Source of the DNA: Deltaproteobacteria bacterium HGW-Deltaproteobacteria-19
GTDB lineage: Bacteria > Desulfobacterota > Syntrophia > Syntrophales > PHBD01
DNA: 45,693 nt
Reading direction: 5' to 3'
Assembly: GCA_002841865.1 (NCBI GenBank)
Contig: PHBD01000033.1
Coordinates: forward strand, 1-45,693
Below the pieces are notes generated by a model. That model was not told the DNA's origin, did not search any database, and saw only the letters and a list, made by a program, of their open reading frames with translations. The first letter of the stretch is position 1. Every line of letters begins with the position of its first letter. A program made the translations under genes and the position numbers. Below are positions 16,442-40,806 of this stretch, piece after piece.

Positions 16442-16490
16442 AAAAAAGCCGCCGTGCGGGAGAGATTCATCTCCTCCCCCGCATGGCGGG
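16442..16490 (-). terminator. Strong rho-independent terminator after the multicopper oxidase gene
   Basis: On the minus strand the left arm (CCGCC-A-TGCGGG... GGAGA) pairs with the right arm (TCTC...CCCGCA-C-GGCGG) across a short TGAA loop, and is followed directly by CTTTTTT (A-run at 16442-16447 on the plus strand). The stem is about 15 bp with one mismatch and a small bulge. It lies about 310 bases past the oxidase stop and isolates that transcript from the polysaccharide cluster. Confidence 0.8.
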
Positions 16491-16624
16491 TGGTCCAATG
16501 GGCGATCGGGTATAGAGGAAACACGACCTTGATAGCCGTATCATCCTGTCAGAAACCGGTCACCATGATGGTCGGGCTGCCTGGAGAAATGACCGTCCAG
16601 GTAGTACCAGCCCGTCTTGCCGAC

Positions 16625-16650
16625 CTATATCCTGTATAGACAGCATATAG
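16625..16650. promoter_or_regulatory. 26-bp near-perfect palindrome
   Basis: CTATAT-CCTGT-ATAG-ACAGC-ATATAG has two 11-base arms with one mismatch around a 4-base centre. It could be a dimeric regulator's operator or a hairpin in the 3' untranslated part of the oxidase transcript. It is AT-rich compared with its surroundings. Confidence 0.4.
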
Positions 16651-16796
16651 ATTTGTGACCGACGCCCTAAAGGTAGTTGACACTGACGCGTTCAACCGGC
16701 TCCAAGAGAAAACGCTCTTTCTCCCCAAAGCGATTATGCTGTCTCCTCTGCCAGGCCGTCACGAACGATCTCCCGCTGCAGCTGACGCGATCCTCA

Positions 16797-19700
16797 TTAG
16801 TAACCGGAAACCATCATGAGCGGACTGTCCGAAGAAAGCTGGCTCCATCCGTTGATTTCCCATTTTGCCAGACCGAACCCGGCAAAGTCCGAATACAGGA
16901 TCGATCCCGAGGCAATCATGGTTGCGGGAATGGATGTGTTCAGCTGGCTCCAGGACGTACCGTCCCACTTTGCCAGCCCGAACCCGGCAAAGCTCGCGTA
17001 GAGGTTGTTGTAGGAGGCCACCATGGCCGTCGGCTCCGCCGTGTTCAACTGGCTCCACTGGGTGCCGTCCCACTTCGCCAGCCCGAATCCCGAGAAGGAT
17101 GCGTAGAGGCTGCTGCCCGAGGCCACCATGGCCGTCGGCTCCGCCGTGTTCAGCTGGCTCCACTGGGTGCCGTCCCACTTCGCCAGCCCGAACCCGGAGA
17201 AGCTCGCATAGAGATTGTTGCCCGAGGCCACCATGGCCGTCGGCTCCGCCGTGTTCAACTGGCTCCACTGGGTGCCGTCCCACTTCGCCAGCCCGAACCC
17301 GGAGAAGATGGCATACAGGCTCGTCCCCGAGGCCACCATGCTCGTCGGGATGGCCGTGTTCAGCTGGCTCCACTGGGTGCCATTCCACCTCGCCAGGCCG
17401 AATCCGGTGAAGCTTGCGTAGAGGTTGTCGCCCGAGGCCACCATGGCCGTCGGCTCCGCCGCGTTCAACTGGCTCCAGCCGTTGCCGTCCCATTTGAAGA
17501 CGCCCTGCCCCGTGAACGTCACGTACAGGTTCGTCCCCGAAGCGGCGAGGGCCGACGGAACGGTGTCGTTGATCTTAGACCAGGCACCAAGGTCCCACTG
17601 CCAGAGCCCCGTGCCCGCGTTCGCCACGTAGAGCAGGCTGTCGGCGTTCATAGCGAGGGGCCGCATCATGTCCATCTCCTCGTGGCTCAGGATGTGGCAG
17701 TGCCACACGTACTCGTGGCCGAAATTCTCCATTCGGTTGGTCACCGGCGGGACCACCGGTTGCGCCGTGAGGGGGTTGATGTTGGTGAACCCGACCGTGG
17801 ATCCCAGGGGCTCCGAGGGATTCAGGGGCCGGATGCTGTTGGGGAGCGGGAAGGGGGGCGCGGGTGCGACGGGCCGCAGGGCCACGATGGTGTCCTGCAG
17901 CGGGTTCACCTTCAGAGTCTCCTTCCAGCCCAGTTCGTTGGGATCCGGCATGGTGATAAACCCGTCCCAGCCGACCCGGTTGAGGAGCTGCACCTCGAAG
18001 AGGTGGAAGTGGACGGGGTGGGTGTCCACGCCGTTGTGGGTGATCTTCCAGATCTGGACCTCGCCGTTCTTCACCTTCTCCGTTGCCGGATCCACGAAGT
18101 TCTGCAAGACGAAGGTCTGGTTCAGGGCCGTCGTGAAGGGCAGCTCGAGGCCCAGCTTGGCACTCATCCGCCCGTAGTCGTCGAAGGTCTCCCCCATCTC
18201 GTCCTGGATGGCCTTGGACTTCATGGGCAGGTTGCTCACGTTCGTCCCGTCCACCCGCTGGTAGCTCAGGTAGCTGTCGGAGATCCGCGAGATTCCCCAG
18301 TAAGGCCAGGCGGCGGGGAAGGTCTTGGCATAGGTTGCGTCGTAGGCCGTCTGCCCGGCGATGATCTCGTGCTGCCCCTGGGCGAAGACACTGTTGGCCC
18401 CGGTGAAGGCGGCCTGCAGCTTCGGCAGGTCGAAAGCGGCAGCGGGCGCCACGTCGGCGATCTTGATCTGCATGACCGTCCGCGTGTTGGGGCCGAAGCC
18501 CGGGAGCGGCGTGTTGGCGCCGCCCACGCTCCGGAGGTCCGGGGCGCCCGTGTAGTAGTCGTAGTGCGGGTCGAGGGCCGGCCAGGGGGCGGGGGCGTCG
18601 TTGTAGAGGATCAGGGTCTTGTTGCGGAAGGCGGAGAAGTCGATGATGACGTCGGCCCGCTCCGCCGGACCGATCTGGAGGGTCCCGCCGCCCTCGGCCT
18701 GGGGCATCACGAGCCCCGCGGTGAAGAGGGTCGGGTCAGTGATCCAGTTGATGGGCTGATTGGGCATCACCACGGGGGTAGGCAGGAAGCCCCCCTCGGT
18801 GCCGATCTGGATCCAGGACGGGCCGGAGGTGGCCGGATCGGGAACGCCCCCCGCCCTGCCGTCGGTCGGCCAGGTCGCGGGCCAGCCGGCGGTCGGCGCG
18901 GCCGTGACCATCTTGACCTCCGTGCAGTTCGTCAGGGGCACGCCCTCCGTCCCGTCGCAGAGCACGAGACCGGGGGAGTTGATCGGGTCTGCCGCGTTCG
19001 TCGTTGCCTTGTCGGCGGCGACATAGAGCTGCAGGTTGAAGAACCGGTCATGGGCCGCGTTGAGGATCCGGAACCGGTAAGCCTTGGGCTCCAGGGTCAG
19101 TGTCGGGTAGGCGGTGCCGTTGATTACCGGGGTGTCCAGGAAGGCCTCCGCCCCCCAGGAGGGGTTCGGCGTCCCGGGCATCTCCGGGGACGGCGAGGCG
19201 GGGCCGTAGTAGGGGTTCGGCACCGGCCCGTAGGTAATGTTGGTTGTCGGCGGCCAGAACCAGGGGCCGTACATCCAGCGCCCCATGGGGTTGACGCCGC
19301 TCAGGTCGGGGTTGTAGGGGTTCTGGGCCGGCATGTAGACGTGGGGCCACCAGAGGTCGCCGGTGACGGCCGTACCCAACGGCTGCCCCGGGATCGACCC
19401 CCATGCCCAGGTCGGGTCGGTGTTCATGACATGGTTGGGGTTGCTGCCGGTGGTGCCCGTGGCGTCCACGAATGTTTTGTCCTGGATGACCAGGGCCACC
19501 TCGTCGGCGGGGATCGTCCCGGCCAGAAATTCCCGGCCGTTCACGGTTCCGCCGTTGATCAGCGCGTCCTCCACGGCGTCGCGGATGATATACCCCGCCG
19601 CGAGCCCCGCGTAGACGCCCAGCCGCGTGATGCCCCAGGCGTGCTCATGGTAGAACATGAACCGGGCGCTCTGCTGGTTGGACCAGAAGTAGGTCATCGC

Positions 19701-20597
19701 TCCGGCCCCGGGGTTGTTCGTCGCCCCGGCGACGGAGCAGGTCGTCTGCCCTGCACAGTTGGAGCCGGGGTAGCTCGTGTTGGTGATGTGGGTCCCTGTC
19801 GCGTCGAACCACATGTCAGGGACATTGTGGACGCTCACGCCCTTCCCGTAACTCTGGTCCTCCCCTGCCGGGGTGATCCACTGGTGGGGCGTGCCGTCGC
19901 TGATCCATGGGCTGCGCCCGCCGTGGAGGTGGATGACCGCCCGGTTCTGGGCGAAGCGGCCGGAAAAGGCAGCCTTCGAGAGCTTCGTCTGGGGGTCATA
20001 GTCCACCGTGTAGTTCCCCGCCCCCATGACGGTGAGGTCCACCGGCAAGAAGAGGTTGCCGGGGGCGCCGAAGGGCAGGCTGTTGACCAGCTTGATGCGG
20101 ACCGGCCGGTCCTTCTGGGTGATGATGAGCGGTCCCAGATAGTGGGGCGTTCGGGCGGGATTGCCGGCGTCCACGTTCAACTGCCGGTACCCTCGCAGCT
20201 TGGAGCCCCCTGTCGTGGCCAGCATCTTGTCGGGGTTGTCGAGGGCGGGGAAGGCCGTGTGCATCCGCTCGCGGAACTCCACCACCTCGATTTCGTAGTA
20301 GTCCGTTCCCGAGTAGGTCGCCTGGTCCGGAACGGCGAGGGGAATGCACTGCCCGATGATGTTTGTGCCGGTGGGGGTACCGCAGATCCCCGGCATTCCG
20401 TCCACGAACTTCTGCAGCTGCGGGCTGTTGGCCCAGTTGGAAGCCGCCCCGAAGTAGTCGGGGATCAGATATCCAAACCCCGGACTGTTCGGGTTCGTGT
20501 CCTGAATGAGTGCCGCCTGCACAGGACCTTGCCCGAATCCCAGGAACAGAACCGTCAATGATACGATCAGTCCTGTTATCATGTTCCGCCTGATCAT
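16797..20597 (-). CDS. Large secreted multicopper oxidase (OmpB/MofA-like) with C-terminal propeller-like repeats
   Basis: The 1266-residue protein has a Sec signal peptide (MIRRNMITG, a hydrophobic core, QAA-L, about residues 1-29) and all four copper motifs of multicopper oxidases: HLHG at 223-226, YHEHA at 316-320, HPVHFH at 860-865, and WHCHILSHEEMDMM at 965-978, which carries the type 1 ligands. Residues about 985-1266 are eight 35-residue repeats (W-D-G-T-Q-W-S-Q-L type). The length, the wide spacing between motif pairs and the 'GTPHQWITPAGEDQSYG' region suggest the OmpB/MofA-type extracellular oxidases linked to metal oxidation or reduction. The true substrate is unknown. The start at 20597 is supported by AAGGAGGTG at good spacing. 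Type II secretion genes are divergent from it and copper-handling genes follow them, which suggests secretion and copper loading by those neighbours. Confidence 0.93.
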   Translation of the reverse strand: MIRRNMITGLIVSLTVLFLGFGQGPVQAALIQDTNPNSPGFGYLIPDYFGAASNWANSPQLQKFVDGMPGICGTPTGTNIIGQCIPLAVPDQATYSGTDYYEIEVVEFRERMHTAFPALDNPDKMLATTGGSKLRGYRQLNVDAGNPARTPHYLGPLIITQKDRPVRIKLVNSLPFGAPGNLFLPVDLTVMGAGNYTVDYDPQTKLSKAAFSGRFAQNRAVIHLHGGRSPWISDGTPHQWITPAGEDQSYGKGVSVHNVPDMWFDATGTHITNTSYPGSNCAGQTTCSVAGATNNPGAGAMTYFWSNQQSARFMFYHEHAWGITRLGVYAGLAAGYIIRDAVEDALINGGTVNGREFLAGTIPADEVALVIQDKTFVDATGTTGSNPNHVMNTDPTWAWGSIPGQPLGTAVTGDLWWPHVYMPAQNPYNPDLSGVNPMGRWMYGPWFWPPTTNITYGPVPNPYYGPASPSPEMPGTPNPSWGAEAFLDTPVINGTAYPTLTLEPKAYRFRILNAAHDRFFNLQLYVAADKATTNAADPINSPGLVLCDGTEGVPLTNCTEVKMVTAAPTAGWPATWPTDGRAGGVPDPATSGPSWIQIGTEGGFLPTPVVMPNQPINWITDPTLFTAGLVMPQAEGGGTLQIGPAERADVIIDFSAFRNKTLILYNDAPAPWPALDPHYDYYTGAPDLRSVGGANTPLPGFGPNTRTVMQIKIADVAPAAAFDLPKLQAAFTGANSVFAQGQHEIIAGQTAYDATYAKTFPAAWPYWGISRISDSYLSYQRVDGTNVSNLPMKSKAIQDEMGETFDDYGRMSAKLGLELPFTTALNQTFVLQNFVDPATEKVKNGEVQIWKITHNGVDTHPVHFHLFEVQLLNRVGWDGFITMPDPNELGWKETLKVNPLQDTIVALRPVAPAPPFPLPNSIRPLNPSEPLGSTVGFTNINPLTAQPVVPPVTNRMENFGHEYVWHCHILSHEEMDMMRPLAMNADSLLYVANAGTGLWQWDLGAWSKINDTVPSALAASGTNLYVTFTGQGVFKWDGNGWSQLNAAEPTAMVASGDNLYASFTGFGLARWNGTQWSQLNTAIPTSMVASGTSLYAIFSGFGLAKWDGTQWSQLNTAEPTAMVASGNNLYASFSGFGLAKWDGTQWSQLNTAEPTAMVASGSSLYASFSGFGLAKWDGTQWSQLNTAEPTAMVASYNNLYASFAGFGLAKWDGTSWSQLNTSIPATMIASGSILYSDFAGFGLAKWEINGWSQLSSDSPLMMVSGY
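16801..17640 (-). repeat. Eight tandem 105-bp repeats inside the multicopper oxidase gene
   Basis: The segment CTGGCTCCACTGGGTGCCG or a close variant recurs exactly every 105 bases (for example at 16839, 16944, 17049, 17154, 17259, 17364 and 17469), with a diverged eighth unit beyond. The central units are almost identical. Each encodes 35 residues with four short strand-like segments (LYASF, GLAKWD, WSQLN, TAMVAS), as in a beta-propeller blade. The near-identity implies recent duplication or gene conversion, so copy number may vary between strains. Confidence 0.9.
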
Positions 20598-21292
20598 GGC
20601 ACACCTCCTTCTTTGCTGTCTCTCGTATCTGCTTGTTGCGTCCACTGTTTCAACTTTATATTTCTCCATTTTCGCATAGCTCCGCCCTCTCGTTTCCATC
20701 GGGAAGGGGAACGGGTTAACGACCTGCGACACCATATTTATAGAATAGGGAAACATCCGCCTGGAAACGGCTCCGATTGCAGGCAATCGGTGCCGGTGCC
20801 ATCATCTCCATCTGCCCTGGCATAGCCTTCATGTCACATCCGCCACACACTCAAACGCTTGATTGTCAGGTCTTCCTGCATGGGACTGCACGAATGACAG
20901 CCGTCGAAGACCCTGACAAACCTTGAATGGAAGCAATTGCGTTTCTCCATTGTTGTCGATTTTGGACATCAATTTATTCAAAACGGACCTTCCCTTCAAT
21001 CGGGCATCGCCTTATTTGAACCTGCCAAATCCCCTAAAAATCGACTCTCCCGCGCCCATCCGCGGCTTCATCCCGGCCAAGCTCCGAAATCGGCATCCGG
21101 ACCATCCCCTGATGCCGAATTAAGAGATTTGCTGACGGGGATCGAGGGGTCCCCTGATGGATTCCCGGGGGGAAAAATGAAACAAAACATGCACGAAGGG
21201 TTTGTCGGGGGTTATCGATCCCGGCTTGCCGGATCATCCGGCTGCCGTATTAACCTCCGCCTGGTCCGGACATCGCTTCGCAGGTTCCGTTC
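20598..21292. other. Divergent intergenic region between oxidase and gspE
   Basis: These 695 bases lie between head-to-head genes and must hold the promoters of both the oxidase (minus) and the secretion operon (plus). I could not identify convincing -35/-10 pairs or a sigma-54 site. A long inverted repeat lies at 20863-20919. A short open frame at 20937-21296 (plus) has no ribosome site or recognisable protein character and is not called. Confidence 0.6.
20863..20919. promoter_or_regulatory. Inverted repeat in the divergent promoter region
   Basis: TTGTCAGG-TCTTC (20863-20875) is the reverse complement of GAAGACCCTGACAA (20906-20919) except for one bulged base, with 30 bases between. It may be a bipartite operator shared by the two divergent transcripts or a stable hairpin. 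No T-run follows on either side, so a terminator is unlikely. Confidence 0.4.
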
Positions 21293-22840
21293 ATGACCGC
21301 CGATAACAGCCCAGACACAAGCCGGACCGCTCCGGTCTGCCGGCCCGAGGACCTCCCCAAGGTGCCCCTCGTCCTGGAGGGGCTGTCCAGCCGCTTCATC
21401 CGCGATAGGCGGTTCATCCCCCTGGAGTTGAAGAACAACCGCCTGAAGGTGCTCATGGCGGACCCGGGTGACCGGGAAGCCGTCGAAGCCCTGTCGATCG
21501 CCCTGTCCGCGGATGTGCGGGTCTATTCCGGCGACGGCAGGATGATCGACGACTACATCTCCCGGTACTACGGACAGGAAGCGCAAGACATAAGCGAGAT
21601 TATTGACAAAATCGACGACGTAGGACCCGAATTCGTCGACAGCGGGGGCGAGGACGTCGGCCACCTGAAGGACCTGGCATCGGAGGCGCCCATCATCAAG
21701 CTCGTCAACCTGCTCATCACGAGGGCCCTGGAGAGCCGGGCCAGCGATATCCACATCGAGCCCTTCGAGGACGAGCTGAAAATACGCTACCGCATCGACG
21801 GCGTGCTCCACGAAATCGAAACGATGCCCAAGAAGCTGCAGGCCGCCATTGTCTCGAGGATCAAGATCATGTCCCGCCTCAATATCGCCGAGCGGAGGCT
21901 GCCCCAGGACGGCCGCATCCGGATTCGAGCGGGCGAGAAGGAGATCGACCTCCGCGTTTCCACGGTCCCCGTGCTCCACGGCGAGGGCGTAGTCATGAGG
22001 ATTCTCGACAAGGAAGGCGTTGTCATCGACCTGGACCGACTGGGGTTTTCCGCGGATATCCTCGAACAATTCCGTCAACTGATCAGGAAACCCCACGGCA
22101 TCCTGCTGGTGACGGGACCCACCGGGAGCGGCAAGACGACCACCCTCTACGGTGCTCTGGACAAGATCAATACGCCGGACCGGAAAATCATTACCGTCGA
22201 GGACCCGGTGGAGTACCAGCTCAAGGGCGTCAACCAGATCCAAGTGAAGCCGGCCATCGGCCTCACCTTCGCCACCACGCTCCGCCACATCGTCCGGCAG
22301 GACCCGGATGTCATCATGATCGGCGAGATCCGGGACCTGGAGACGGCGGAGATCGCCGTCCAGTCCGCCCTGACGGGGCACATGGTTTTCGCGACCCTCC
22401 ATACGAACGACGCCCCGAGCGCCGTCACGAGGCTGCTGGACCTGGGCATGGAGAGCTTTCTCCTGTCTTCGACGATCCGGGGTATCCTGGCCCAGAGGCT
22501 CGTTCGCGTCATCTGCCCGAACTGCCGCGAGCGGGACGACTCGGCCTTCACAATCGAGGAGCGGGCCCTTTTCGGTCTCTCCGCGGACACGGTGCTGTAC
22601 CGCGGGCGTGGCTGCGAAACCTGCACGTGGACAGGCTACTACGGTCGGCAGGGTGTTTTCGAACTCATGGCAATGGACGACGAACTGCGCCGGCTGGTCC
22701 TCCGGAACGCCGATGCCAACGAGTTGCGTCAGAGGGCAAGGGAGCTGGGGATGAAGACGCTCCTCGAGGACGGGGCGGACAAGGTCCGGCGAGGGGTGAC
22801 GACCCTGCAGGAAGTCTTCCGGGTGACCCAGGAGGCATGA
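21293..22840 (+). CDS. gspE: Type II secretion ATPase GspE
   Basis: The 515-residue hexameric ATPase that drives pseudopilus assembly has an N-terminal GspE-N domain (about 20-120) and a full catalytic core: Walker A 'GPTGSGKTT' (275-283), Asp box 'TVEDPVEY', Walker B 'IMIGEIRD' (342-349) and His box 'GHMVFATLHTNDA'. A tetracysteine zinc site is formed by CPNC (408-411) and CETC (441-444), as in GspE and PilB. An ATG at 21293 has a weak AGGT upstream. It heads a plus-strand operon with gspF and the pseudopilin, divergent from the multicopper oxidase. PilB of type IV pili is the main alternative, but the GspG/GspD partners favour type II secretion. Confidence 0.93.
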   Translation: MTADNSPDTSRTAPVCRPEDLPKVPLVLEGLSSRFIRDRRFIPLELKNNRLKVLMADPGDREAVEALSIALSADVRVYSGDGRMIDDYISRYYGQEAQDISEIIDKIDDVGPEFVDSGGEDVGHLKDLASEAPIIKLVNLLITRALESRASDIHIEPFEDELKIRYRIDGVLHEIETMPKKLQAAIVSRIKIMSRLNIAERRLPQDGRIRIRAGEKEIDLRVSTVPVLHGEGVVMRILDKEGVVIDLDRLGFSADILEQFRQLIRKPHGILLVTGPTGSGKTTTLYGALDKINTPDRKIITVEDPVEYQLKGVNQIQVKPAIGLTFATTLRHIVRQDPDVIMIGEIRDLETAEIAVQSALTGHMVFATLHTNDAPSAVTRLLDLGMESFLLSSTIRGILAQRLVRVICPNCRERDDSAFTIEERALFGLSADTVLYRGRGCETCTWTGYYGRQGVFELMAMDDELRRLVLRNADANELRQRARELGMKTLLEDGADKVRRGVTTLQEVFRVTQEA

Positions 22841-22841
22841 G

Positions 22842-24038
22842 ATGCCGCTCTTCGCGTACCGCTCCACAACCCTGGAAGGCGCCGTCGCAGAGGGGCTGAT
22901 CGAGGCGATCGACCGGCGGGCGGCTATCGAAAAGCTCAAGAACTCCGGGGTGATCCCGCTGGAGGTCAAGGCACCCGCCCCGGTGCGCCTGCGGGCGCGT
23001 TGGCGGCTCCGTCCTGCTGCGGGGGACCTGACGGCCTTCACGGCCGAGCTCTCCACCCTGCTGGCCGCCGGACTTCCCCTGGACCGGAGCCTGAATATCC
23101 TGGCGGAGATCGAAGAGCACCGGGGCATGCGGGAGACCGTCCGGTCCCTTCTGCGCGCCATCCGGGAAGGGGCCTCGTTCTCCGAGGCCCTCCAGAGGCA
23201 CCCGGAGATGTTTTCCAGGCTCTACGTAAACATGGTCCGTGCCGGCGAGGCGGGGGGCGTCCTCGACGTGATCCTGGAGAAGCTGAACGAGTACCTGGAG
23301 TCGGCGAAGGAGCTGCGGGACCATGTCGTGTCCGCCCTGATTTACCCGGCGATCCTCGTGGTGACGGGGGGCGTATCCATCGTCCTGCTTTTGACCTTCG
23401 TCCTGCCCCGCTTCTCCGCGATCTTCTCCGAGATCGGGACCGCCCTGCCCGTCTCGACCAAAATCCTAATGGCCATCAGCGGGGCACTGCAGTCCTATGG
23501 ATGGTTCTTCCTGGCGATCCTGGTCGCGACTGCCCTCCTGGTCCGGCAGTACCTCGCCACGGAAAAGGGGCGCCTGGGCTGGGATGCGCTCATGCTCCGG
23601 CTCGCGGGTGATGTGGTCCGGAAACTGGAGACGGCCCGTTTCTGCCGGACCCTGGGAACGCTCCTCGCCGGAGGGGTTCCCCTGCTGCAGGCCCTGGGCA
23701 ACGCCCGGGACGTCATCGGGAACCGTGTCGTCGCCGGGAAAATCGATGCCGTAACCCGGGGTGCCAAGGAGGGGCGCGGGATCGCGGACCCGCTGGCCCG
23801 GACGGGTTCATTTCCACAGCTGGCTCTCTCCATGATCGCCGTCGGAGAGGAGAGTGGGCAGTTGGAATCGATGCTGATCCGGATCGCCGTGACCTATGAA
23901 AAGGGCCTGCGGCAGGCGGTGAAGAGGCTGATGGCCGTCCTGGAGCCCCTGCTGATCCTGTTCATGGGGCTCATCATCGGTTTTGTCGTGATTTCGATGC
24001 TGCTGGCCATATTCAGCATTTCCGACATCCCGATCTGA
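22842..24038 (+). CDS. gspF: Type II secretion inner-membrane protein GspF
   Basis: The 398-residue protein has two T2SSF repeats (about 70-195 and 270-395) and three TM helices (about 165-190, 215-240 and the C-terminal 370-395). The N-terminus 'MPLFAYRSTTLEGAVAEGLI' and the pattern 'FTAELSTLLAAGLPLDRSL' are typical. GspF is the membrane platform with which GspE engages. The start lies one base after the gspE stop, with AGGAGG 6 bases upstream. Confidence 0.94.
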   Translation: MPLFAYRSTTLEGAVAEGLIEAIDRRAAIEKLKNSGVIPLEVKAPAPVRLRARWRLRPAAGDLTAFTAELSTLLAAGLPLDRSLNILAEIEEHRGMRETVRSLLRAIREGASFSEALQRHPEMFSRLYVNMVRAGEAGGVLDVILEKLNEYLESAKELRDHVVSALIYPAILVVTGGVSIVLLLTFVLPRFSAIFSEIGTALPVSTKILMAISGALQSYGWFFLAILVATALLVRQYLATEKGRLGWDALMLRLAGDVVRKLETARFCRTLGTLLAGGVPLLQALGNARDVIGNRVVAGKIDAVTRGAKEGRGIADPLARTGSFPQLALSMIAVGEESGQLESMLIRIAVTYEKGLRQAVKRLMAVLEPLLILFMGLIIGFVVISMLLAIFSISDIPI

Positions 24039-24071
24039 GAGGGAATGGGAGCCACCGGAGGAGACGAGACC

Positions 24072-24512
24072 ATGGGAAGCGGACAACGGGGCTTCACCCT
24101 CCTCGAGATGATCCTGGTGCTCATGCTCGCCTCCCTGATCCTGGGAATGTCGTCGGTCTTCTTCGCAGGCTTCCTGCCGACCGCCCGGCTGAACGCTGCG
24201 GGCCGCGAGATCACGGCTTCGATCCGCCACGCCCGCTCCCTCGCCCGAGCGACCATGGAAAGCCGTACGGTCTTCCTCGACCTGGACGGCAGGACCTACG
24301 GCATCGAGGGACTGTCAAGAAAGCCCCTTCCGCCGAATACCCGGATCCGGGTGTTCGACGACCTTGCCGGCGTGATCGACCGGGGCACGTATGCCATCAC
24401 GTTCCGCCGCGGTGCCACCACGAGAGGCGGAAGCATCGTCCTCTCGGCCGGAAGGAAAACGTTGCACATCGAGATGGACCCCATCACAGGGGCCGTCCGG
24501 ATCGCCGACTGA
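24072..24512 (+). CDS. gspH: Type II secretion minor pseudopilin, GspH-like
   Basis: The 146-residue protein has a short leader and the class III cleavage site G-FTLLE (cut after Gly7, with Glu at +5), followed by a hydrophobic helix. The body ('AAGREITASIRHARSLARAT', 'RTVFLDLDGRTYGIEG', C-terminal 'ITGAVRIAD') matches GspH/FimT-type pseudopilins rather than GspG. In most operons GspG comes directly after GspF; here GspH does and GspG lies 6.5 kb downstream. The start at 24072 has GGAGGAG 8 bases upstream; an in-frame ATG at 24045 lacks such a site. Confidence 0.85.
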   Translation: MGSGQRGFTLLEMILVLMLASLILGMSSVFFAGFLPTARLNAAGREITASIRHARSLARATMESRTVFLDLDGRTYGIEGLSRKPLPPNTRIRVFDDLAGVIDRGTYAITFRRGATTRGGSIVLSAGRKTLHIEMDPITGAVRIAD

Positions 24513-31550: not shown

Positions 31551-33839
31551 TTGAGCCATCGAAGATTCCTGTTCCCACTCTGCGTTGCTGCTTTTCTCCT
31601 CATCACGGCCCCCGGCCCGCTGTCTCCGCTTCCGGGCGCGGGCGGCCCGGGCTGGGCGCAAGACCAGCCGGCAGAGGCCAAGCCTGCTTCGCCTCCGGCT
31701 ACGGCTCCGGACCCGGGGCCGGAGGCGGGAGCGGCTCCCGCACCCGCACCCCTGCCTGCAACGAATGTGACGGCACCCGCACCGCCCGGGACAGCAACGG
31801 TCGCACCAGCGGGATCACCGGCCCCGGCGGCAGCCCCGGAGCCGACCGGGCCTCCCGTGATGCCCGTCCCGCAGCCCCGTCCGGTTACCATGCAGCCCCC
31901 CGGGAGTCCCTCGAGGCCGCCGCCGGGCACCGTCCAGGGACCCCGGTTCGGCATGCCCGCCCGCACCGCGCCGGGCATGCCCGGCGCTCCCGGACCCCCG
32001 TTCCCCGTTCAGGGCAAAACCCCGTTCGCCCCCGTTTCCGGAGCGCCGGCGGCGCCGGGGATGATGCCGGGCGGCCCGGGCGCGATGCAACCGCCGACCG
32101 CAATGGCGGTACCGGCGGGCATGTTCGTCCTCAACTTCGACGACGCCGACGTGTACACGATCATCCAGACCATCTTCGGCGAGGCCCTGCGGGTCAATTA
32201 CGTTGTCGACCCCCGCGTCAAGGGTCGCGTCACGTTTCGTGCCACCGCCCCCGTTGCGAAGGACAAAATACTTCCCCTGATGGAGGTTATCCTCCGACTC
32301 AACGGGATCGGCATCGTGGAGGACAACGGTCTCTACCGCATCGTTCTCATCGGCGACATCCCGAAGGAGCCTTCGCTCGTCAGTTTCGGCAGGGATCCCT
32401 CCAAGATCCCGACAACGGGAAAGGCGCTCCTCCAGGTGGTGCCCATCGAGTACGTCCAGTCATCGGAAGTCCTGAAGCTGATCAACCCCTTCGCGTCCAC
32501 CAACGCCGTCCTCATCGACGTACCGAAGGCGAACCAGCTCATCATCGTGGACACCGATGCCAACGTGAAGCGGATGCTCAGGCTGATCGAGATCTTCGAT
32601 AACGAGAGACTCCGGCAGAGAAAGCCCAAGGTCTTCGTCTACGCGGTACAAAACGGCAAGGCGAAGGACATCGCGAACCTCCTCCAGCAGATCTACATGG
32701 GCGCCAAGGGAGGCGTTCTCGAAGCCATCCCTGCCGCTGCCTCCAGCCGGACGGGAACCGGACATGCGGCCGGTGTTCCGTCATCCCTTGCCGCAACCGC
32801 CGCCCCGACGCCTGCCGCCTCCGTCGTTACCAGCGGCGAGGCGGTGCTGGCTGACTTTACCCGGATCATCCCCGACGAGATCACCAACACCATCACGATC
32901 CTCTCCACTCCGGAGGACTACGCCTCCATCCAGGAGACCATCCGGCAGATCGACATCGTGCCGCGGCAGGTGATGATCGAGGGTATGATCGCCACCGTGT
33001 CCCTAACGGACAATCTCAGCCTCGGCCTCGCGGGACTCTACAAGCAGAGCGTGTTCGGCGTGGACGCCCTGCTTTCGCTCAACCCGAAGGCCCTGAACAT
33101 CAACCCCTACGCCCTCTCCACGACCGGGTTCACGGCCGTGGGCCTCGACTCGGCGGGAGCCGTCCGGGCACTCGTCACGGCCCTGGCCACCCAGTCGAAG
33201 GCTAAAGTGCTGGCGTCTCCCCACGTCCTGGTGTCCGACAACCGGGATGCCAAGATCCAGGTGGGGCAGCAGGTGCCCCTCGTGACCTCCGAGACCTACG
33301 GGACCCCCGGGGTGTCCCCCCAGCGGAACTACCAGTACCGCGATATCGGCATCATCCTGAAGGTCAAGCCCCGGATCAACGAAGGCGGGCTTGTGTCCAT
33401 GGAGATCTACCAGGAGATATCGACCTACGACAAGTTCCCCATCGGAACGGAGGAGCAGATCCTCCTCAACAAGACGGACGCATCGACGAACCTGGTCGTG
33501 CAGGACGGCCAGACCATCGTCATCGGCGGGCTCAACACAAACAAGTCCCGATCGGGCCTTCCGTTCCTGACCAAGATCCCCATCCTGGGCTGGCTCTTCG
33601 GCACCACCGCGGACGACACGACCCGGCAGGAGATCATCATCCTCCTGACGCCACACGTGATCAAGAGCCAGCAGCAGGCAAAAGACGTCTCGAAGGGCTT
33701 TGTCGAGAAGCTTTCCGAGCAGAGTAAGGGTGGCATCCGTAAAGAGGAGCTCTTACGAACGAATCCGGAGCCGCCTGCGGACAGTCCTCCGCCGCAGCCG
33801 GCGGGCGGCGACGTGGAGGAACCGGCGAACAAGAAATGA
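31551..33839 (+). CDS. gspD: Type II secretion outer-membrane secretin GspD with long Pro/Ala/Met linker
   Basis: The 762-residue secretin forms the outer-membrane channel. After an N-terminal signal (to about residue 36), an unusual low-complexity linker of about 155 residues is rich in Pro, Ala and Gly and holds nine Met between residues 104 and 191. N-domains follow from about 191 ('MFVLNFDDADVYTIIQTIFG'), and the C-terminal secretin domain has 'KVLASPHVLVSDNRDAKIQV', 'DIGIILKVKPRINEGG' and 'GLNTNKSRSGLPFLTKIP'. The tail is Pro-rich and charged. Translation appears to start at TTG 31551, with GGGAG 7 bases upstream; no ATG is placed before the signal sequence. Its stop overlaps an ATG at 33836. 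Confidence 0.93.
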   Translation: MSHRRFLFPLCVAAFLLITAPGPLSPLPGAGGPGWAQDQPAEAKPASPPATAPDPGPEAGAAPAPAPLPATNVTAPAPPGTATVAPAGSPAPAAAPEPTGPPVMPVPQPRPVTMQPPGSPSRPPPGTVQGPRFGMPARTAPGMPGAPGPPFPVQGKTPFAPVSGAPAAPGMMPGGPGAMQPPTAMAVPAGMFVLNFDDADVYTIIQTIFGEALRVNYVVDPRVKGRVTFRATAPVAKDKILPLMEVILRLNGIGIVEDNGLYRIVLIGDIPKEPSLVSFGRDPSKIPTTGKALLQVVPIEYVQSSEVLKLINPFASTNAVLIDVPKANQLIIVDTDANVKRMLRLIEIFDNERLRQRKPKVFVYAVQNGKAKDIANLLQQIYMGAKGGVLEAIPAAASSRTGTGHAAGVPSSLAATAAPTPAASVVTSGEAVLADFTRIIPDEITNTITILSTPEDYASIQETIRQIDIVPRQVMIEGMIATVSLTDNLSLGLAGLYKQSVFGVDALLSLNPKALNINPYALSTTGFTAVGLDSAGAVRALVTALATQSKAKVLASPHVLVSDNRDAKIQVGQQVPLVTSETYGTPGVSPQRNYQYRDIGIILKVKPRINEGGLVSMEIYQEISTYDKFPIGTEEQILLNKTDASTNLVVQDGQTIVIGGLNTNKSRSGLPFLTKIPILGWLFGTTADDTTRQEIIILLTPHVIKSQQQAKDVSKGFVEKLSEQSKGGIRKEELLRTNPEPPADSPPPQPAGGDVEEPANKK

Positions 33840-34331: not shown

Positions 34332-34853
34332 ATGAAGAAGAACACAATCACAGCTATCGTCGTCGCATTCTGCCTGCTCACGGCAGGAATTCTCTGGGCC
34401 GTCAGCAGCGATATCCAGGAATTCCCGGCCTGCAAGTACTGCGGCATGAACCGGGAGATGTTCGCCCACAGCCGGATGCTCACCGAATTCACCGACGGGT
34501 CGCGGGAGGGCACGTGCAGCCTGCACTGCGCCGCTATCGACCTCGCCCTGAACATGGACAAGGCGCCCAAGAACCTCCTGGTGGGTGATTACGGGACGAA
34601 GGAACTGATCAACGCGGAGACGGCGACCTGGGTCATCGGGGGCAAGAAGCCCGGCGTGATGACCAAGAACGCCAAGTGGGCCTTCGCGAAAAAGGCGGAT
34701 GCGGAAATGTTCATGAAGCAGAACGGGGGGCGGCTCGCCGGATTCGACGAGGCGCTGGAGGCTACCTACAAGGACCTCGCCGCCGACACGAAGATGATCC
34801 GCGAGCGGCGCAAGCAGATGAAGATGAAAAAGATGCAGGGGCATAAATCATGA
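34332..34853 (+). CDS. NosL-family copper-binding protein (first copy)
   Basis: The 173-residue protein has an N-terminal signal or anchor (about 5-24) and then 'FPACKYCGMNREMFAHSRML', the C-x-x-C-G-M motif of NosL-type proteins (C34, C37, M39), followed by 'TDGSREGTCSLHCAAIDLAL', which adds two Cys. The C-terminus is Lys/Met-rich (KQMKMKKMQGHKS). NosL proteins bind Cu(I) and help assemble copper sites of nitrous-oxide reductase, but no nosZ lies here, so another copper enzyme, possibly the multicopper oxidase, may be served. AAAGGAG is 10 bases before the ATG. The stop overlaps the next gene by ATGA. Confidence 0.85.
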   Translation: MKKNTITAIVVAFCLLTAGILWAVSSDIQEFPACKYCGMNREMFAHSRMLTEFTDGSREGTCSLHCAAIDLALNMDKAPKNLLVGDYGTKELINAETATWVIGGKKPGVMTKNAKWAFAKKADAEMFMKQNGGRLAGFDEALEATYKDLAADTKMIRERRKQMKMKKMQGHKS

Positions 34854-35371
34854 TTCCTGTGTCCGGAACCGGCCGAAAAGCCGCCAGGGTGATCGGGACA
34901 ATCGGCCTCCTGTGCATCCTGTGCTTCCCTCTGCTGCGGACTCCCGCGGCCGCCGGGGAGGCCGGGGTGCCGGGGCCGTCGGCCCGGGACAAGTGCCCCG
35001 TCTGCGGCATGTTCGTGTCGAAGTACCCCGACTGGACGGCCGTCGTCCTCTTCCGTGACGGATCCCGCGTTTACTTCGACGGCGCCAAGGACATGTTCAA
35101 GTACCTGTTCGACATGAAGCGATACGATCCGCGGCGGGATCCGGGGTCGATCCGGTCCATCCTGGTGACGGACTACTACCGCATCACCTGGACGGATGCG
35201 CGAAAGGCCTGGTACGTGCTGGGGAGCGACGTCTACGGTCCCATGGGGAGAGAACTCATCCCCCTGGAGAAGGAGACGGATGCTCGGGAATTCCTCAACG
35301 ATCACAAGGGTAAAAGAATTCTGCGATTCCCCGGGATCACCCGGGAGGTGGTCCTTGGACTCGACGAATAA
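34850..35371 (+). CDS. NosL-family copper-binding protein (second copy)
   Basis: The 173-residue protein has a signal peptide (cut near residue 35) and the standard NosL motif 'DKCPVCGMFVSKYPDWTAVV' (C49, C52, M54), then 'FRDGSRVYFDGAKDMFKYLF' and 'VTDYYRITWTDARKAWYVLG'. It is closer to canonical NosL than its upstream neighbour. Two different NosL-like proteins in tandem suggest a relay or a heterodimer. It is translationally coupled to the first copy (34850-34853), and its end overlaps the next gene by 17 bases. Confidence 0.88.
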   Translation: MIPVSGTGRKAARVIGTIGLLCILCFPLLRTPAAAGEAGVPGPSARDKCPVCGMFVSKYPDWTAVVLFRDGSRVYFDGAKDMFKYLFDMKRYDPRRDPGSIRSILVTDYYRITWTDARKAWYVLGSDVYGPMGRELIPLEKETDAREFLNDHKGKRILRFPGITREVVLGLDE

Positions 35372-35720
35372 CCCGCTGTTGGACAGCCCGGCAGGAAGGG
35401 CTCGGTCTCCTCTCCGGAGATCGAGCCTGTGCCTGTCCATGGCAGTCCTCTGCCTTCTCATGATCGCGTTGATGTTCGTCCACGCGGATATGCGGCGGAC
35501 CGCCGACGGTCCTTCCCTGAACCGCCAGGCTGCGCTCGTCCGGGACCTGGGGCTGACGGACCTGGCCCTCTTCACGGAAGCCCGCTATACACGCAACCTG
35601 TCCCAGGCAGACCTGCACTCGGCATTCCAGGACCATCCCGTCGCCCTGGAGCATTTCCCCACGGGCTCCCTGGCAGGCCCGCCGGCGGCCTTACGGAGGC
35701 TCCATGACCCGCTGGATTGA
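35355..35720 (+). CDS. Small single-TM protein of the copper cassette, unknown function
   Basis: The 121-residue protein starts at TTG 35355, preceded by a strong GGGAGGTGG at 4-5 bases, inside the end of the second NosL gene. A basic N-terminus leads to one TM helix (about residues 25-43, 'LSMAVLCLLMIALMFVHA'), then a soluble, probably periplasmic part with 'LVRDLGLTDLALFTEARYTR' and 'LHSAFQDHPVALEHFPTGSL'. I recognise no family. Overlaps on both sides (17 bases each) tie it tightly to NosL and the ABC permease. It may be an accessory subunit of that transporter. Confidence 0.65.
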   Translation: MDSTNNPLLDSPAGRARSPLRRSSLCLSMAVLCLLMIALMFVHADMRRTADGPSLNRQAALVRDLGLTDLALFTEARYTRNLSQADLHSAFQDHPVALEHFPTGSLAGPPAALRRLHDPLD

Positions 35721-36840
35721 ATCGCAGAGGAACATCCTCGATTACACACTCTCCTCGCTCCTGCGTCGCAAGGGGAAGAACGCGAGCCTGCTGTTCGTCT
35801 ACACCCTTGTTGTCTTTATCCTGGCGTCGGCGATGTTCTTCCTGCAGGGGATGAAGAGAGAGGCGGCACTCCTGCTGCGGGAGACCCCCGAAATTGTTGT
35901 CCAGGGCATGCTGCAGGGGCGATACGACCCCATCCCGGACACCCACCTGGAGAAGATCCGGTCCATCCGGGGCGTCTTGTCCGCAGAGACCCGGCTGTGG
36001 GGGTACTACTACGACCCGGTGGCGGGAGCCAACTATACCCTTCTGGTCCCCCGGGACCGGACCATCACCGGCGATGCGATCGTAATCGGCAACGGCCTCT
36101 CGAGGGTTCGCCAGGTCTTCCCGGGGGACATCCTGTCCTTCCGGGGCCGCGACGGAACAAACCGGCCCTTCGTTGTCGAGGGGACCTTCCCGGCTGAATC
36201 GGAACTGGTGTCGGCCGACCTGATCCTGGTTTCCGCCGAGGGCTTCCGCAGCCTCTTCGGGCTCCCCCCCTCGCGGGCCACAGACATCGTCGTGACGGTG
36301 CGCAACCCCCGGGAAGTGCGGACGGTGGCCCGCAAGATCGCAGAAATGCTCCCGGAGGCACGCCCCATCCTCCGCGACGAAATAGCGCGGACGTACGATT
36401 CCGTTTTCGACTGGCGGGGGGGGATCGTCCTGGTTCTCCTGTCCATGTCCTTGCTGGCTTTCGCCATCCTGGCCTGGGACAAGGCATCAGGGCTCAGTGC
36501 GGAGGAGCGCCGGGAGATAGGGATTCTCAAGGCCATCGGCTGGGAGACCTCCGACGTGATTGCGGCGAAGGTATATGAGGGCTGGTTCGTTTCCTTCTTT
36601 GCCTTCACCCTGGGGCTGCTCATCGCCTACTGGCATGTGTTCTTCACTTCAGCGGCCCTGTTCGCCCCCGCCCTGAAGGGCTGGTCCGTCCTCTACCCGG
36701 ACTTCCGGATCACCCCCTTCGTGGATCCCTACCAGGTGGCGGTCCTCTTTTTCCTGACCGTCGTTCCCTACACCGCCGCCACGGTGGTCCCGTCCTGGCG
36801 GGCGGCTATCGTCGACCCCGACGCGGTCATGAGGACATAG
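35704..36840 (+). CDS. ABC transporter permease, FtsX/MacB type
   Basis: The 378-residue permease has one TM near residues 31-49, a periplasmic domain of about 190 residues, and three C-terminal TM helices (about 238-257, 296-318, 348-366). Between TM2 and TM3 is the FtsX coupling segment 'SAEERREIGILKAIGWETSD'. This is the MacB/LolC-like fold, which transmits ATP hydrolysis to the periplasm rather than moving a solute through the membrane. Together with NosL it recalls the NosY/NosF part of nos clusters, though the permease type differs. The ATPase follows after 2 bases. Confidence 0.9.
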   Translation: MTRWIESQRNILDYTLSSLLRRKGKNASLLFVYTLVVFILASAMFFLQGMKREAALLLRETPEIVVQGMLQGRYDPIPDTHLEKIRSIRGVLSAETRLWGYYYDPVAGANYTLLVPRDRTITGDAIVIGNGLSRVRQVFPGDILSFRGRDGTNRPFVVEGTFPAESELVSADLILVSAEGFRSLFGLPPSRATDIVVTVRNPREVRTVARKIAEMLPEARPILRDEIARTYDSVFDWRGGIVLVLLSMSLLAFAILAWDKASGLSAEERREIGILKAIGWETSDVIAAKVYEGWFVSFFAFTLGLLIAYWHVFFTSAALFAPALKGWSVLYPDFRITPFVDPYQVAVLFFLTVVPYTAATVVPSWRAAIVDPDAVMRT

Positions 36841-36842
36841 CA

Positions 36843-37571
36843 ATGATCCGGCTTCTGGACGTGCGCAAGGGATTCAACCTGGGTAAGCCGAACGCGTTCG
36901 TCGCCGTCAGCGGCATCACGCTCACCCTGGAGGCCAACCGGGTCACCGTGCTGAAGGGACCCAGCGGTTCCGGGAAAACGACGCTGCTCAGCCTTGTCGG
37001 CTGCATGGCACGACCCACTTCCGGCCGGATCACCCTCACCGGCAGGTTCCCGGGATTCAACGGGTCGGCGGGGGAACCAGACCTCCGGGAAATCGAGGTC
37101 ACCAGTCTTCCGGAACGGTTCCTCACGAAGGTTCGCCAGCGCACCTTCGGGTTCGTCTTCCAGCAGTTCAACCTCATCGGCGGACTCACCGTCCTGGAAA
37201 ACATCATGCTGCCCGCTATCCCCCTGGGGGAGAGGCACGACGTCACCCGGGAACGGGCACTGGCGCTCCTGGATCTCTTCGGCCTCGGCGGTCGCGCCGA
37301 CGCCCGGGTGGAATGGCTCTCCGGGGGCGAGGCGCAGCGGTCAGCCATCGCCCGGGCCCTCATCAACGACCCGCCCGTGGTCATCGCCGACGAGCCGACG
37401 GCTCACCTGGACAGCAAACTCTCGCTGGAGTTCATGGACATCATCGCCCTCCTGAAGGACCGGGGGAAGACCGCCATCATCGCGAGCCACGACCCCCTCG
37501 TGTCCGAGGCGGGGATGGTCGACCGGGTCGTGGCCATGCGGGACGGCCTGATCGACGGGGAGCCGGCATGA
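36843..37571 (+). CDS. ABC transporter ATP-binding protein, LolD/MacB type
   Basis: The 242-residue ATPase has Walker A 'GPSGSGKTT' (39-47), a Q-loop in 'FGFVFQQFNLIGGLTVLENI', the signature 'LSGGEAQRSAIARAL' (E in place of the usual Q), Walker B 'VVIADEPTAHLD' and the switch His in 'AIIASHDPLVSEA'. A 15-20 residue insertion lies between Walker A and the Q-loop ('LTGRFPGFNGSAGEPD'). It pairs with the FtsX-type permease upstream. Its stop overlaps the start of the next gene (ATGA). Confidence 0.93.
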   Translation: MIRLLDVRKGFNLGKPNAFVAVSGITLTLEANRVTVLKGPSGSGKTTLLSLVGCMARPTSGRITLTGRFPGFNGSAGEPDLREIEVTSLPERFLTKVRQRTFGFVFQQFNLIGGLTVLENIMLPAIPLGERHDVTRERALALLDLFGLGGRADARVEWLSGGEAQRSAIARALINDPPVVIADEPTAHLDSKLSLEFMDIIALLKDRGKTAIIASHDPLVSEAGMVDRVVAMRDGLIDGEPA

Positions 37572-38569
37572 TCCTCCACCCTGCCATCCTGACACTCGTG
37601 TTCGTCTCCCTCCTCACCACCGGGATGATCCTCTACAGCGCCTTCTTCGGCTACCGGATCCTCCGGTGCTGGGACATCCGGAGTGGAAGCGAGGAACAGC
37701 TCGCCCTGGAGAGAAGGACCTATCTCCTCTCCACCCTCGTCTCCCACGTGCTGGTTTTCCAGATCGGATCCCTCTTCCTGTACATTTACACAGCCGACAT
37801 TCTGCACGTCCTCTTCGTCGGTGCCATGTGCGCCGCCGGCACCCTGAACGTCAACGCGTTCGGCTACCCCGCGTTCCTCTTGAAACTGCTGAACTGCATC
37901 GTCGCCGGCCTCTGGCTGATTCTGAACCATGCGGACAACCAGGCTCACGACTACCCCCTGATCCGGAAAAAGTATGCCCTTCTCATCCTCATGGCGCCCC
38001 TGATCGCCGCAGAGGCGTACCTGCAGACCCGATTCTTCCTCGGCCTCGAGGGAGACGTGATCACCTCCTGCTGCGGCAGCCTCTTCAGCGCCGAGAATCC
38101 GGGAATCAGCGGCGACCTGGTTTACGCACCACCCGCTGTGTCCATGGCGGTCCTTGCGGTATTCATGGCCCTGACATTCGGTACGGGCCTGCTCTACCGG
38201 CTCCGGGGACAGGCGGGCCCCTGGTTTTCCCTTTTCAGCGGGCTGACGTTCATTGTGTCCTGCGTTTCCCTCATCTCGTTCATCTCGGTATATTTCTATG
38301 AACTGCCGACACACCACTGCCCATTCTGCATCCTCCAGGCCGAGTACGGATACGTGGGATACCTCCTTTACGCCGCACTCCTCGCGGGGGTCGTCTGCGG
38401 ACTCGGCGTGGGCCTGCTGATGCCCTTCCGGGGGATTCCGAGCCTGGCCCGCCGTCTTCCGGAGATCCAGCAGCAGCTTGCTCTTGCCGGCCTTGTTTCC
38501 TACGGCCTTTTTGCCGGTGTTTCCCTGTACGGAGTCCTGGCCACGGACTTCACCCTCGGACTCCTGTGA
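37568..38569 (+). CDS. Polytopic membrane protein with Cys motifs, unknown function
   Basis: The 333-residue protein has about eight TM helices (near 5-25, 55-75, 80-95, 105-120, 137-152, 190-210, 222-243, 262-284 and possibly 305-323). Two Cys motifs stand out: C168-C169 in 'DVITSCCGSLFSAENPG', and H249-H250-C251-P-F-C254 in 'ELPTHHCPFCILQAEYGYVG'. Both look placed at membrane boundaries on the same side. This would suit metal transfer or thiol-redox exchange. I recognise no family. It is coupled to the ABC ATPase gene by an ATGA overlap and ends the first part of the copper cassette. Confidence 0.72.
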   Translation: MILHPAILTLVFVSLLTTGMILYSAFFGYRILRCWDIRSGSEEQLALERRTYLLSTLVSHVLVFQIGSLFLYIYTADILHVLFVGAMCAAGTLNVNAFGYPAFLLKLLNCIVAGLWLILNHADNQAHDYPLIRKKYALLILMAPLIAAEAYLQTRFFLGLEGDVITSCCGSLFSAENPGISGDLVYAPPAVSMAVLAVFMALTFGTGLLYRLRGQAGPWFSLFSGLTFIVSCVSLISFISVYFYELPTHHCPFCILQAEYGYVGYLLYAALLAGVVCGLGVGLLMPFRGIPSLARRLPEIQQQLALAGLVSYGLFAGVSLYGVLATDFTLGLL

Positions 38570-38793
38570 TGGCCGGACAGGGCTGTTTGAAGGGGAAGCT
38601 GTCCCCAATCATCCATATCCTGAGGGACAATTCAGAGATTCCATGATGCCGATCCGGTATCGACCTTATAGAAAACAGGCCGACAACGTGTCAGGTTTTA
38701 CACTCGAACCCGAGCAACCATCGCACCCCGCGGCGCACCGGTTCCCGTTCCGGGTACCGGCCGCCCCCAGAAACAGGAGAAGATGACAAAGCC

Positions 38794-40806
38794 ATGATGA
38801 AAATCCGTACCGGCATCATCATTCTGGTGGTCATCGCCGTCGCGTCTTTTCTGGCCGGCAAGGGCATCACCCTCCTCGGCGGCAAGCAGGCGCAGGAGCG
38901 GAAGGTCCTGTATTACGTGGACCCGATGAACCCGGCCTTTCGGTCCGAAAAGCCCGGCATCGCCCCGTGCGGGATGCCGCTGGAGCCCGTCTACGCGGAC
39001 AGTGCCGCGCCCGCCGGCGCGGCACCCCCGGGTACCATCCGTATTTCCCCCGAGAAGCAGCAGCTGATGGGCGTCAGGACGGCCACCGTCGAAAAGGCCC
39101 CCTGGACCCATACGATCCGGGTCCTGGGAAGGGTCGCCCCGGACGAAACCAGGATCTACCGGATTAATGCAGCCGTAAGCGGCTGGATCGAGGAAGTCTC
39201 ACAGGTTACTACCGGAAGCCTGGTCAAGAAGAACGATCTCCTGGCCACGTCCTATTCCCTTGAATACCGATCCCTCTTCCAGAACTACATGAGCCTCGCA
39301 GTCCCGGATCATGTCGACCCGGCCCGTGCTGAACCCGGGCAGTCCGCCTCGCGTTACACAGACGCCCAGCTCCGCCAGATGCGCAAGACGGTCCAGACCC
39401 TGAACCGGGGAACCTACGACCCGCAGATGGACTACTACCGGAGGAACCTCGAGAATTACGGCATCAGCGAACAACAGATCAAGGAGATGCAGCGAACCCG
39501 GAGGATCCCGGACATCGCCGAGATTCGGTCGCCCATCTCCGGATTCATCCTCACGCGGAACATATCCCCGGGCCTGCGGTTCGATCGCGGACTCGAGTTC
39601 TTCAGGATCGCCGACCTTTCCCGGGTATGGATCCTGGCGGACGCGTTCGAGAACGAAGCGTCCTACTTCAAGCCCGGTGCGATGGCGAAAATCGACCTCC
39701 CCTACGCCCGGAAGTCCCTCCACGCCAGGATCAGCAAAGTCCTGCCCCAATTCGACCCGGCCACCCGCACCCTGCGGATCCGCCTGGTCGCGGACAACCC
39801 CGGATTTATCATGCGCCCCGACATGTTTGTTTACGTGGAGCTTTCCATAAACGGTCCCCCGGCAATCATCGTACCCGTGGATGCGGTACTCAGCTCGGGT
39901 CTGAAGAAAACTGTGTTCGTCGACCTGGGCAACGGCATTTTCGAGCCGCGGCAGGTGGAAACCGGAAAGTCGCTTGGGGAGCGGGTGGAGATCGTCCGCG
40001 GCCTCATGCCGGGAGAGAAAATTGCCGTGGCGGGCAACTTCCTGATCGATTCGGAGGCGCGGATGCAGCAGACTGCCGCCGGCATCCACGGAAGCGCAAG
40101 CCGTGACCCGGTGTGCGGCATGAACGTGGGCGAGGAACGCGCCCGCGCGGAGAAGCACGTCTTTGAGCACAAGGGAACGACCTACTATTTCTGCTCGATC
40201 GAATGCCGGGATGAGTTTGCCAGGAACCCCGGGAAGTACACCGGGGCGTCACAGGCCCCGACCGTCATGCCCGGGACCACATCCCAAAAGCAGGTGAAGA
40301 ATCACAAGGATCACGCCGACATGCCGATGCCCGGACCTTCAAAAGAGTCGGGAAAGCGTGATCCCCACGGCGACATGTCCATGCCCTCGCGCTACGGAGG
40401 CAGAGGCGAGGTTCAACCGGACGCGGGCAGGGAGGGGATGAGAATGCCGCCGGCAGCGGCCCAGACGGAGATGCCCATGTCTCCCGTCGCTCCCGTCCCG
40501 GGCATAAACCCGATGACGGGGAACACTCCGCAGCCGAAAGGCTCGGGGATCTTCATGCAGCCGGGCTCGCCGGCCATGCCCGGCCCGTCTCCCGGAACGG
40601 CCGTCGCACCGATGCCGGGGAGGCCGGTCATGGGTCCACCCTCGATGAAGGCTCCGGTGCCGGGCGGCGTTGCTATTCCGGGTGCTCCCGCGGCGCCGGC
40701 CATGAAGACTCAAAAGCCCGGCGGGACCGCAGCCGCCATGCCGGGGACCTCCCCGAAAGGCCCGTCACCGCCTGGGGCCGATGAGCGCGAAGACGACCAT
40801 GATTAA
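38794..40806 (+). CDS. cusB: CusB-type RND efflux adaptor with YHS domain and Met-rich tail
   Basis: The 670-residue periplasmic adaptor is much longer than E. coli CusB (about 400). It has an N-terminal anchor (5-25), a heavy-metal-binding motif at 40-67 ('YYVDPMNPAF', 'GIAPCGMPLEPVY'), the membrane-fusion core with hairpin and beta-barrel (about 100-430), a YHS-type metal-binding domain at about 438-483 ('DPVCGMNVGEER', 'YYFCSIEC'), then a disordered tail of about 187 residues rich in Met (17), Pro, Gly and some His. It links CusA to an outer-membrane channel; none is in the window. Two ATGs stand at the start. An AGGAG sits 14 bases upstream, before a four-codon frame (38783-38797) whose stop overlaps this start. 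It overlaps cusA. Confidence 0.92.
   Translation: MMKIRTGIIILVVIAVASFLAGKGITLLGGKQAQERKVLYYVDPMNPAFRSEKPGIAPCGMPLEPVYADSAAPAGAAPPGTIRISPEKQQLMGVRTATVEKAPWTHTIRVLGRVAPDETRIYRINAAVSGWIEEVSQVTTGSLVKKNDLLATSYSLEYRSLFQNYMSLAVPDHVDPARAEPGQSASRYTDAQLRQMRKTVQTLNRGTYDPQMDYYRRNLENYGISEQQIKEMQRTRRIPDIAEIRSPISGFILTRNISPGLRFDRGLEFFRIADLSRVWILADAFENEASYFKPGAMAKIDLPYARKSLHARISKVLPQFDPATRTLRIRLVADNPGFIMRPDMFVYVELSINGPPAIIVPVDAVLSSGLKKTVFVDLGNGIFEPRQVETGKSLGERVEIVRGLMPGEKIAVAGNFLIDSEARMQQTAAGIHGSASRDPVCGMNVGEERARAEKHVFEHKGTTYYFCSIECRDEFARNPGKYTGASQAPTVMPGTTSQKQVKNHKDHADMPMPGPSKESGKRDPHGDMSMPSRYGGRGEVQPDAGREGMRMPPAAAQTEMPMSPVAPVPGINPMTGNTPQPKGSGIFMQPGSPAMPGPSPGTAVAPMPGRPVMGPPSMKAPVPGGVAIPGAPAAPAMKTQKPGGTAAAMPGTSPKGPSPPGADEREDDHD

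Follow-up and report, generated by a model that had tools for sequence, protein, structure and literature searches.

The multicopper oxidase gene at positions 16797 to 20597 (minus strand) of the window, that is, the whole 45,693-nucleotide stretch of DNA analyzed here, seems on balance to encode a secreted OmpB/MofA-type oxidase whose C-terminal tail, a predicted closed eight-bladed beta-propeller, would serve as an exchangeable tether to a surface or substrate after export by a type II secretion system. Solid metal oxides are the materials whose reduction or oxidation OmpB-type oxidases are linked to, which raises the question of what keeps such an enzyme at a solid surface. Natural homologues that differ mainly in the attachment module make this question testable by domain swaps in a laboratory strain. 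No description of this oxidase-propeller fusion was found in the literature searched.

Oxidase core and start codon

The reading frame spans 16797 to 20786 on the minus strand and encodes 1,329 amino acids when counted from an upstream TTG at 20786. The likely start codon is the ATG at 20597, which gives a protein of 1,266 amino acids; it has an AGGAGG ribosome site close upstream (AAGAAGGAGGTGTGCC-ATG), and a second ATG follows five residues later. An apparent signal peptide, MIRRNMITGLIVSLTVLFLGFGQGPVQAA (20511 to 20597, minus strand), was assigned by reading of the sequence and not by a predictor score. The protein matches CotA-type oxidases in the PDB and exceeds the Pfam cut-off for Cu-oxidase_2. 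All four copper-binding motifs by which OmpB/MofA oxidases are recognized are present (17664 to 19931, minus strand), in regions that align across relatives: HLHGG from 19931, YHEHAW at 19652, THPVHFH at 18023, and HCHILSHEEMDMM at 17702 to 17664. The label OmpB/MofA-type refers to these described features and not to a measured identity to OmpB or MofA. Nine residues, RPLAMNADS (17637 to 17663, minus strand), form a joint between the last copper motif and the first blade, and this joint is the putative exchange point.

Anatomy of the repeats

The oxidase ends in eight in-frame units (16797 to 17636, minus strand), seven of 35 residues and a last one of 34 residues plus the stop codon, with no insertions or deletions; Tandem Repeats Finder likewise reported a period of 105 and 0% indels. 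Counted from the ATG at 20597, the units occupy residues 988 to 1266 (279 residues). The initial annotation had placed eight exact-length 35-residue repeats at residues 985 to 1266, and both the count and the position agree closely with these measurements. On the minus strand, blade 1 (17532 to 17636) is divergent and resembles blade 1 of relatives; it is followed by blade 2 (17427 to 17531), blade 3 (17322 to 17426), a near-identical group consisting of blades 4 (17217 to 17321), 5 (17112 to 17216), and 6 (17007 to 17111), blade 7 (16902 to 17006), and blade 8 with the stop codon (16797 to 16901), which ends in its last strand, MMVSGY. This is the only intact array of 35-residue blades in the window genome.

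Units 4 to 6 share 88 to 93% DNA identity, while units 2, 3, and 7 are intermediate and units 1 and 8 share just 35 to 60% with the other units. At the protein level, blades 3 to 7 are 71 to 94% identical, with blades 1 and 8 below 60%. Among units 4 to 6, dS ranges from 0.19 to 0.38 and dN/dS from 0.16 to 0.21, indicating that they were homogenized fairly recently but are under purifying selection and not fresh copies. The earlier view that the central DNA units are almost identical, and the domain young or kept uniform, therefore holds for units 4 to 6 but not for the remaining units, the outer ones being old.

Sequence searches gave the repeat no convincing home. No curated family in Pfam, NCBIfam, or the PDB sequences convincingly covers the 35 residues, PDB sequence searches with the tail and with a tail profile returned no credible match, a PHROGs search gave a single, insignificant match, and close relatives of the tail were absent from the phage records and plasmids searched. 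Neither FG-GAP nor fibronectin III was detected in the window protein by Pfam at E values up to 10. DUF6087 and DUF2510 scored above their Pfam cut-offs on the isolated tail, but these matches were dismissed as spurious because each spans only about 14 to 18 residues, repeated along the array.

Predicted fold of the tail

AlphaFold2 returned a closed eight-bladed propeller with 32 strands, four to each blade (mean pLDDT, 93.6; pTM, 0.88), using an alignment of nine sequences and a program that tends to close repeats. A structural aligner matched the model to NirF (Z of 19.8 over 283 of 283 residues) and to AztD, cytochrome cd1, and the designed Bagel8 (281 to 283 residues), all of which we take to be eight-bladed propellers. 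Eight-bladed structures are among the best full-length structural matches of the model, and the top Foldseek match was the designed eight-bladed Ika8. The fold, as modeled, is well supported. The eight-bladed propeller and the four strand-like segments per repeat proposed in the initial annotation are thus borne out by prediction. A second model, of residues 130 to 1329, had a pLDDT of 42 and gave no domain orientation.

The array starts with the strand LLYVAN and ends with the strand MMVSGY. Judged by the repeat phase, the blade that opens with the first three strands of blade 1 would be completed by this C-terminal strand, closing the ring; a closure of this sort would account for the usual end of such arrays exactly at a stop codon. 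Members with one, two, or four blades also exist, and such arrays could not close alone.

The PLL and PHL lectins of Photorhabdus also share the propeller fold and were matched to the tail model with a Z of about 17 over 231 to 240 residues. A narrower form of the tether, in which the propeller is a lectin for a cell-surface or matrix glycan, would fit this match, the 17 tryptophans in the tail, and the polysaccharide-type flippase and methyltransferase genes downstream of the oxidase. However, PLL and PHL are free-standing and seven-bladed, other functional classes score higher, and solved PLL/PHL or tectonin lectins gave no sequence match to the tail; the similarity is structural only, and likeness of fold does not show function. 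We regard a lectin as unlikely.

The fusion in relatives

A closely similar oxidase was found in 8 of 155 genomes of the order, the window genome included, and five of the eight oxidases carry 35-residue blades (the window genome, G512, G448, G059, and G471). The arrays of G512 and G448 are complete, with seven blades each, whereas the contigs of G059 and G471 end within the array. That four more genomes of the order carry the fusion contradicts the initial annotation, in which no such appendage was known on OmpB/MofA-like oxidases; other relatives moreover have FG-GAP propellers, and OmpB itself reportedly has a fibronectin III domain (PMC5566968).

Blade 1 of each fusion protein is closest to blade 1 of the others, whereas middle blades are closest to their own neighbors, so that blade number changed locally on an older fusion, and the fusion itself is not recent. 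In an alignment with the seven-blade relatives, the difference in length is one whole blade. The last unit of the window array matches the last blade of one relative (L040), and a truncated blade 8 was rejected as a reading because its end, KWExxGWSQ...PLxMxxG, is shared with that blade. The family offers a clear case of a propeller with inherited ends and remade middle blades, in which related proteins differ by the gain or loss of one blade.

The same comparisons bear on whether the repeat count, or the fusion, could be an artefact of assembly. In two relatives the contig breaks off at the repeats, and in others the repeats left runs of N. In the window, however, the longest exact direct repeat inside the array is 74 bases, all units can be told apart, and the contig runs through; a relative agrees in frame, in stop, and in its last blade, and independent genomes share the fusion. 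An artefact, which the initial annotation had named as a risk, is thus very unlikely.

Past the oxidase stop codon lies a stretch of decayed blades (16489 to 16725, minus strand; E value of 1e-8) ending in LYAVYTGYRSARRAGTTWTVISPGSPTIMVTGF and a stop. Its HMM score was 14.5, compared with a best score of 6.4 in 500 shuffles, and it is in a different frame from the oxidase, closing with IMVTGF and a stop as intact arrays do. The match between blade 8 and the terminal blade of L040 marks the present stop as the normal end, so that the remnant is an extra, derived perhaps from a duplication.

Highly repetitive beta-propellers that arose by amplification of single blades have been described, including disrupted blades near the gene or past the stop codon (Pereira and Lupas 2022, PMC9218822). 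The window tail resembles them in its near-identical inner blades, C-terminal position, broken blades after the stop, and blade number that varies between close relatives, and blades 3 to 7 exceed the 60% blade identity used in that work; it differs in its 35-residue blade, for which Pfam, NCBIfam, and the PDB sequences offer no convincing family. Oxidases are not mentioned in the text of that work. As such propellers amplify continually, often near the C terminus and with broken blades past stops (PMC9218822), and as the window too has decayed blades past the stop, the blades might be an amplification-prone element, spread by recombination and largely neutral, that has no specific ligand. This is rather improbable given the dN/dS of the homogenized blades and the retention of the fusion, with similar first blades, in several genera.

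Different tails at one joint

Tails were compared in 25 further oxidase relatives across the phylum, none of which (0 of 25) has 35-residue blades. All of the tails begin at one joint, after HCHxxxHExxDMMRP. Many look like fibronectin III; this domain scored above the Pfam cut-off in one relative of the same order (L025) and just below it in two phylum relatives. Four relatives (L112 to L115), with cores 65 to 67% identical to that of the window oxidase, have FG-GAP propellers at the joint, called by Pfam in L112 and by eye in L113 to L115. These propellers begin at the same joint as the window tail, but their blades are of the FG-GAP/VCBS type, about 50 residues long, and do not match the 35-residue profile. 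In L125 and L127 the tail consists of repeats of about 50 residues, GVFDNGTWYLDLNGNGAWDG (GVFNGxWYLDxNGNG), with no Pfam matches. Four other oxidase relatives extend merely 21 to 35 residues beyond the motif (counted from the motif); as some relatives are tail-less, the tail is not essential.

In a quick core tree, built without bootstraps, the five blade-bearing oxidases fell into two separated groups, and forcing them into one clade was rejected (p-AU of 1e-12). Their first blades nevertheless share LNxDQLLY...QWDxG, which is lacking in nonoxidase arrays and in a second class of blade-bearing oxidase. As the cores do not form one clade although the first blades are alike, the tail was probably exchanged between oxidases. 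This pattern is better explained by a single fusion, after which either the tail or the core beneath it was transferred, than by two fusions; the split may alternatively reflect several losses of the tail. A sliding comparison for a recombination breakpoint within the oxidase core revealed none that was clear. The modular history of these proteins is well supported.

Blades on other secreted proteins

A scan of genome contigs revealed that the same blades terminate many unrelated secreted proteins, among them a papain-like peptidase region, a thaumatin-like protein, M23-like and subtilase-like peptidases, DUF1566-like proteins, and others, all named by sequence reading and not from profile results. 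Arrays of 7 and 8 blades are the commonest within a range of 1 to 10, and most arrays terminate exactly at the stop codon; one exception, L145, continues for 215 residues beyond the array. G512 also has a second copper oxidase, from a different class (Cu-oxidase_2 by Pfam), that ends in seven blades. On one contig of this genome (L026; G512:C131, 563 to 9229), two copper oxidases of different classes, each with seven terminal blades, are separated by two FKBP peptidyl-prolyl isomerase genes. Isomerase genes beside an oxidase resemble mofAB of Leptothrix and are reminiscent of mofB.

At least six loci with blades and differing N-terminal parts occur in Umea1_bin-2529. Three adjacent genes with seven terminal blades each (L143, L151, and L154; G451:C22) apparently belong to Smithella sp. 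D17, and 705-residue proteins are identical between G451 and that strain. The propeller could conceivably act as a tag for sorting or retention, recognized by the secretion machinery or an outer-surface receptor, instead of binding a substrate, so that many secreted proteins of one cell share it and reach the same place. The loci in Umea1_bin-2529, the apparent row of three genes, and arrays that usually abut the stop codon all speak for such a tag. A single tag would seem unneeded, however, when oxidase relatives have fibronectin III, FG-GAP, or no tail, the window genome holds just one intact array, and some proteins carry 1, 2, 4, or 10 blades; a tag is accordingly not the reading to be expected. 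A tentative possibility, somewhat short of even, is that the core end after HCHxxxHExxDMMRP is a recombination port at which attachment modules (fibronectin III, FG-GAP, the 35-residue propeller, and GVFNGxWYLD) have been swapped, the propeller being a surface address shared by many secreted proteins.

Proteins on three viral contigs (IMG/VR; L103, L104, and L105) and on L046 have some of these blades in mid-protein. L104 and the bacterial contig L046 encode identical 608-residue proteins, which suggests a prophage. In L094 and L149, a single blade forms the very end of a 121-residue protein whose start is YD-like.

A proposed tethering role and export route

Tethering is the role that we favor for the propeller. 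The oxidase would leave the cell through the neighboring type II secretion system, and the propeller, as an exchangeable module, would hold the exported enzyme on a surface polymer, a mineral, or a partner. No ligand site was identified in the propeller. This role is modeled on Geobacter OmpB, whose fibronectin III domain has been proposed as an anchor to Fe(III) oxides (PMC5566968) and whose secretion requires a type II system (PMC3543383), and it draws also on the pattern of tail exchange. Like OmpB of Geobacter sulfurreducens, the window protein would be a large oxidase that is secreted by a type II system (here by adjacency of genes only) and has an attachment domain at its C terminus, but its domain is a predicted eight-bladed propeller where fibronectin III was reported for OmpB. 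Deinococcus also has a secreted copper enzyme fused to a propeller; there the enzyme is a Cu/Zn superoxide dismutase and the propeller, in contrast, is of the six-bladed calcium lactonase kind (PMC12362111).

Divergent from the oxidase, on the plus strand, lie genes for a GspE-like type II secretion ATPase (21293 to 22840; T2SSE, 1e-144), a GspF-like protein (22842 to 24038), and a pseudopilin-like protein with an N-methylation motif (24045 to 24512), followed by response regulators, a histidine kinase, a GspD-like secretin (31551 to 33839), the NosL pair, an ABC system, and the efflux pair. The E, F, and pseudopilin genes adjoin the oxidase also in L027 and L029, as do F and the pseudopilin in L026. 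Such neighbors are as expected for OmpB-like enzymes, and their adjacency points to a putative type II export route. The secretion genes are in turn adjoined by a copper/heavy-metal set (34332 to 44068, plus strand) made up of two NosL copper-handling proteins (34332 to 35371, at 34332 to 34853 and 34850 to 35371), the ABC system, and the CusB-like and RND heavy-metal efflux genes (38794 to 44068).
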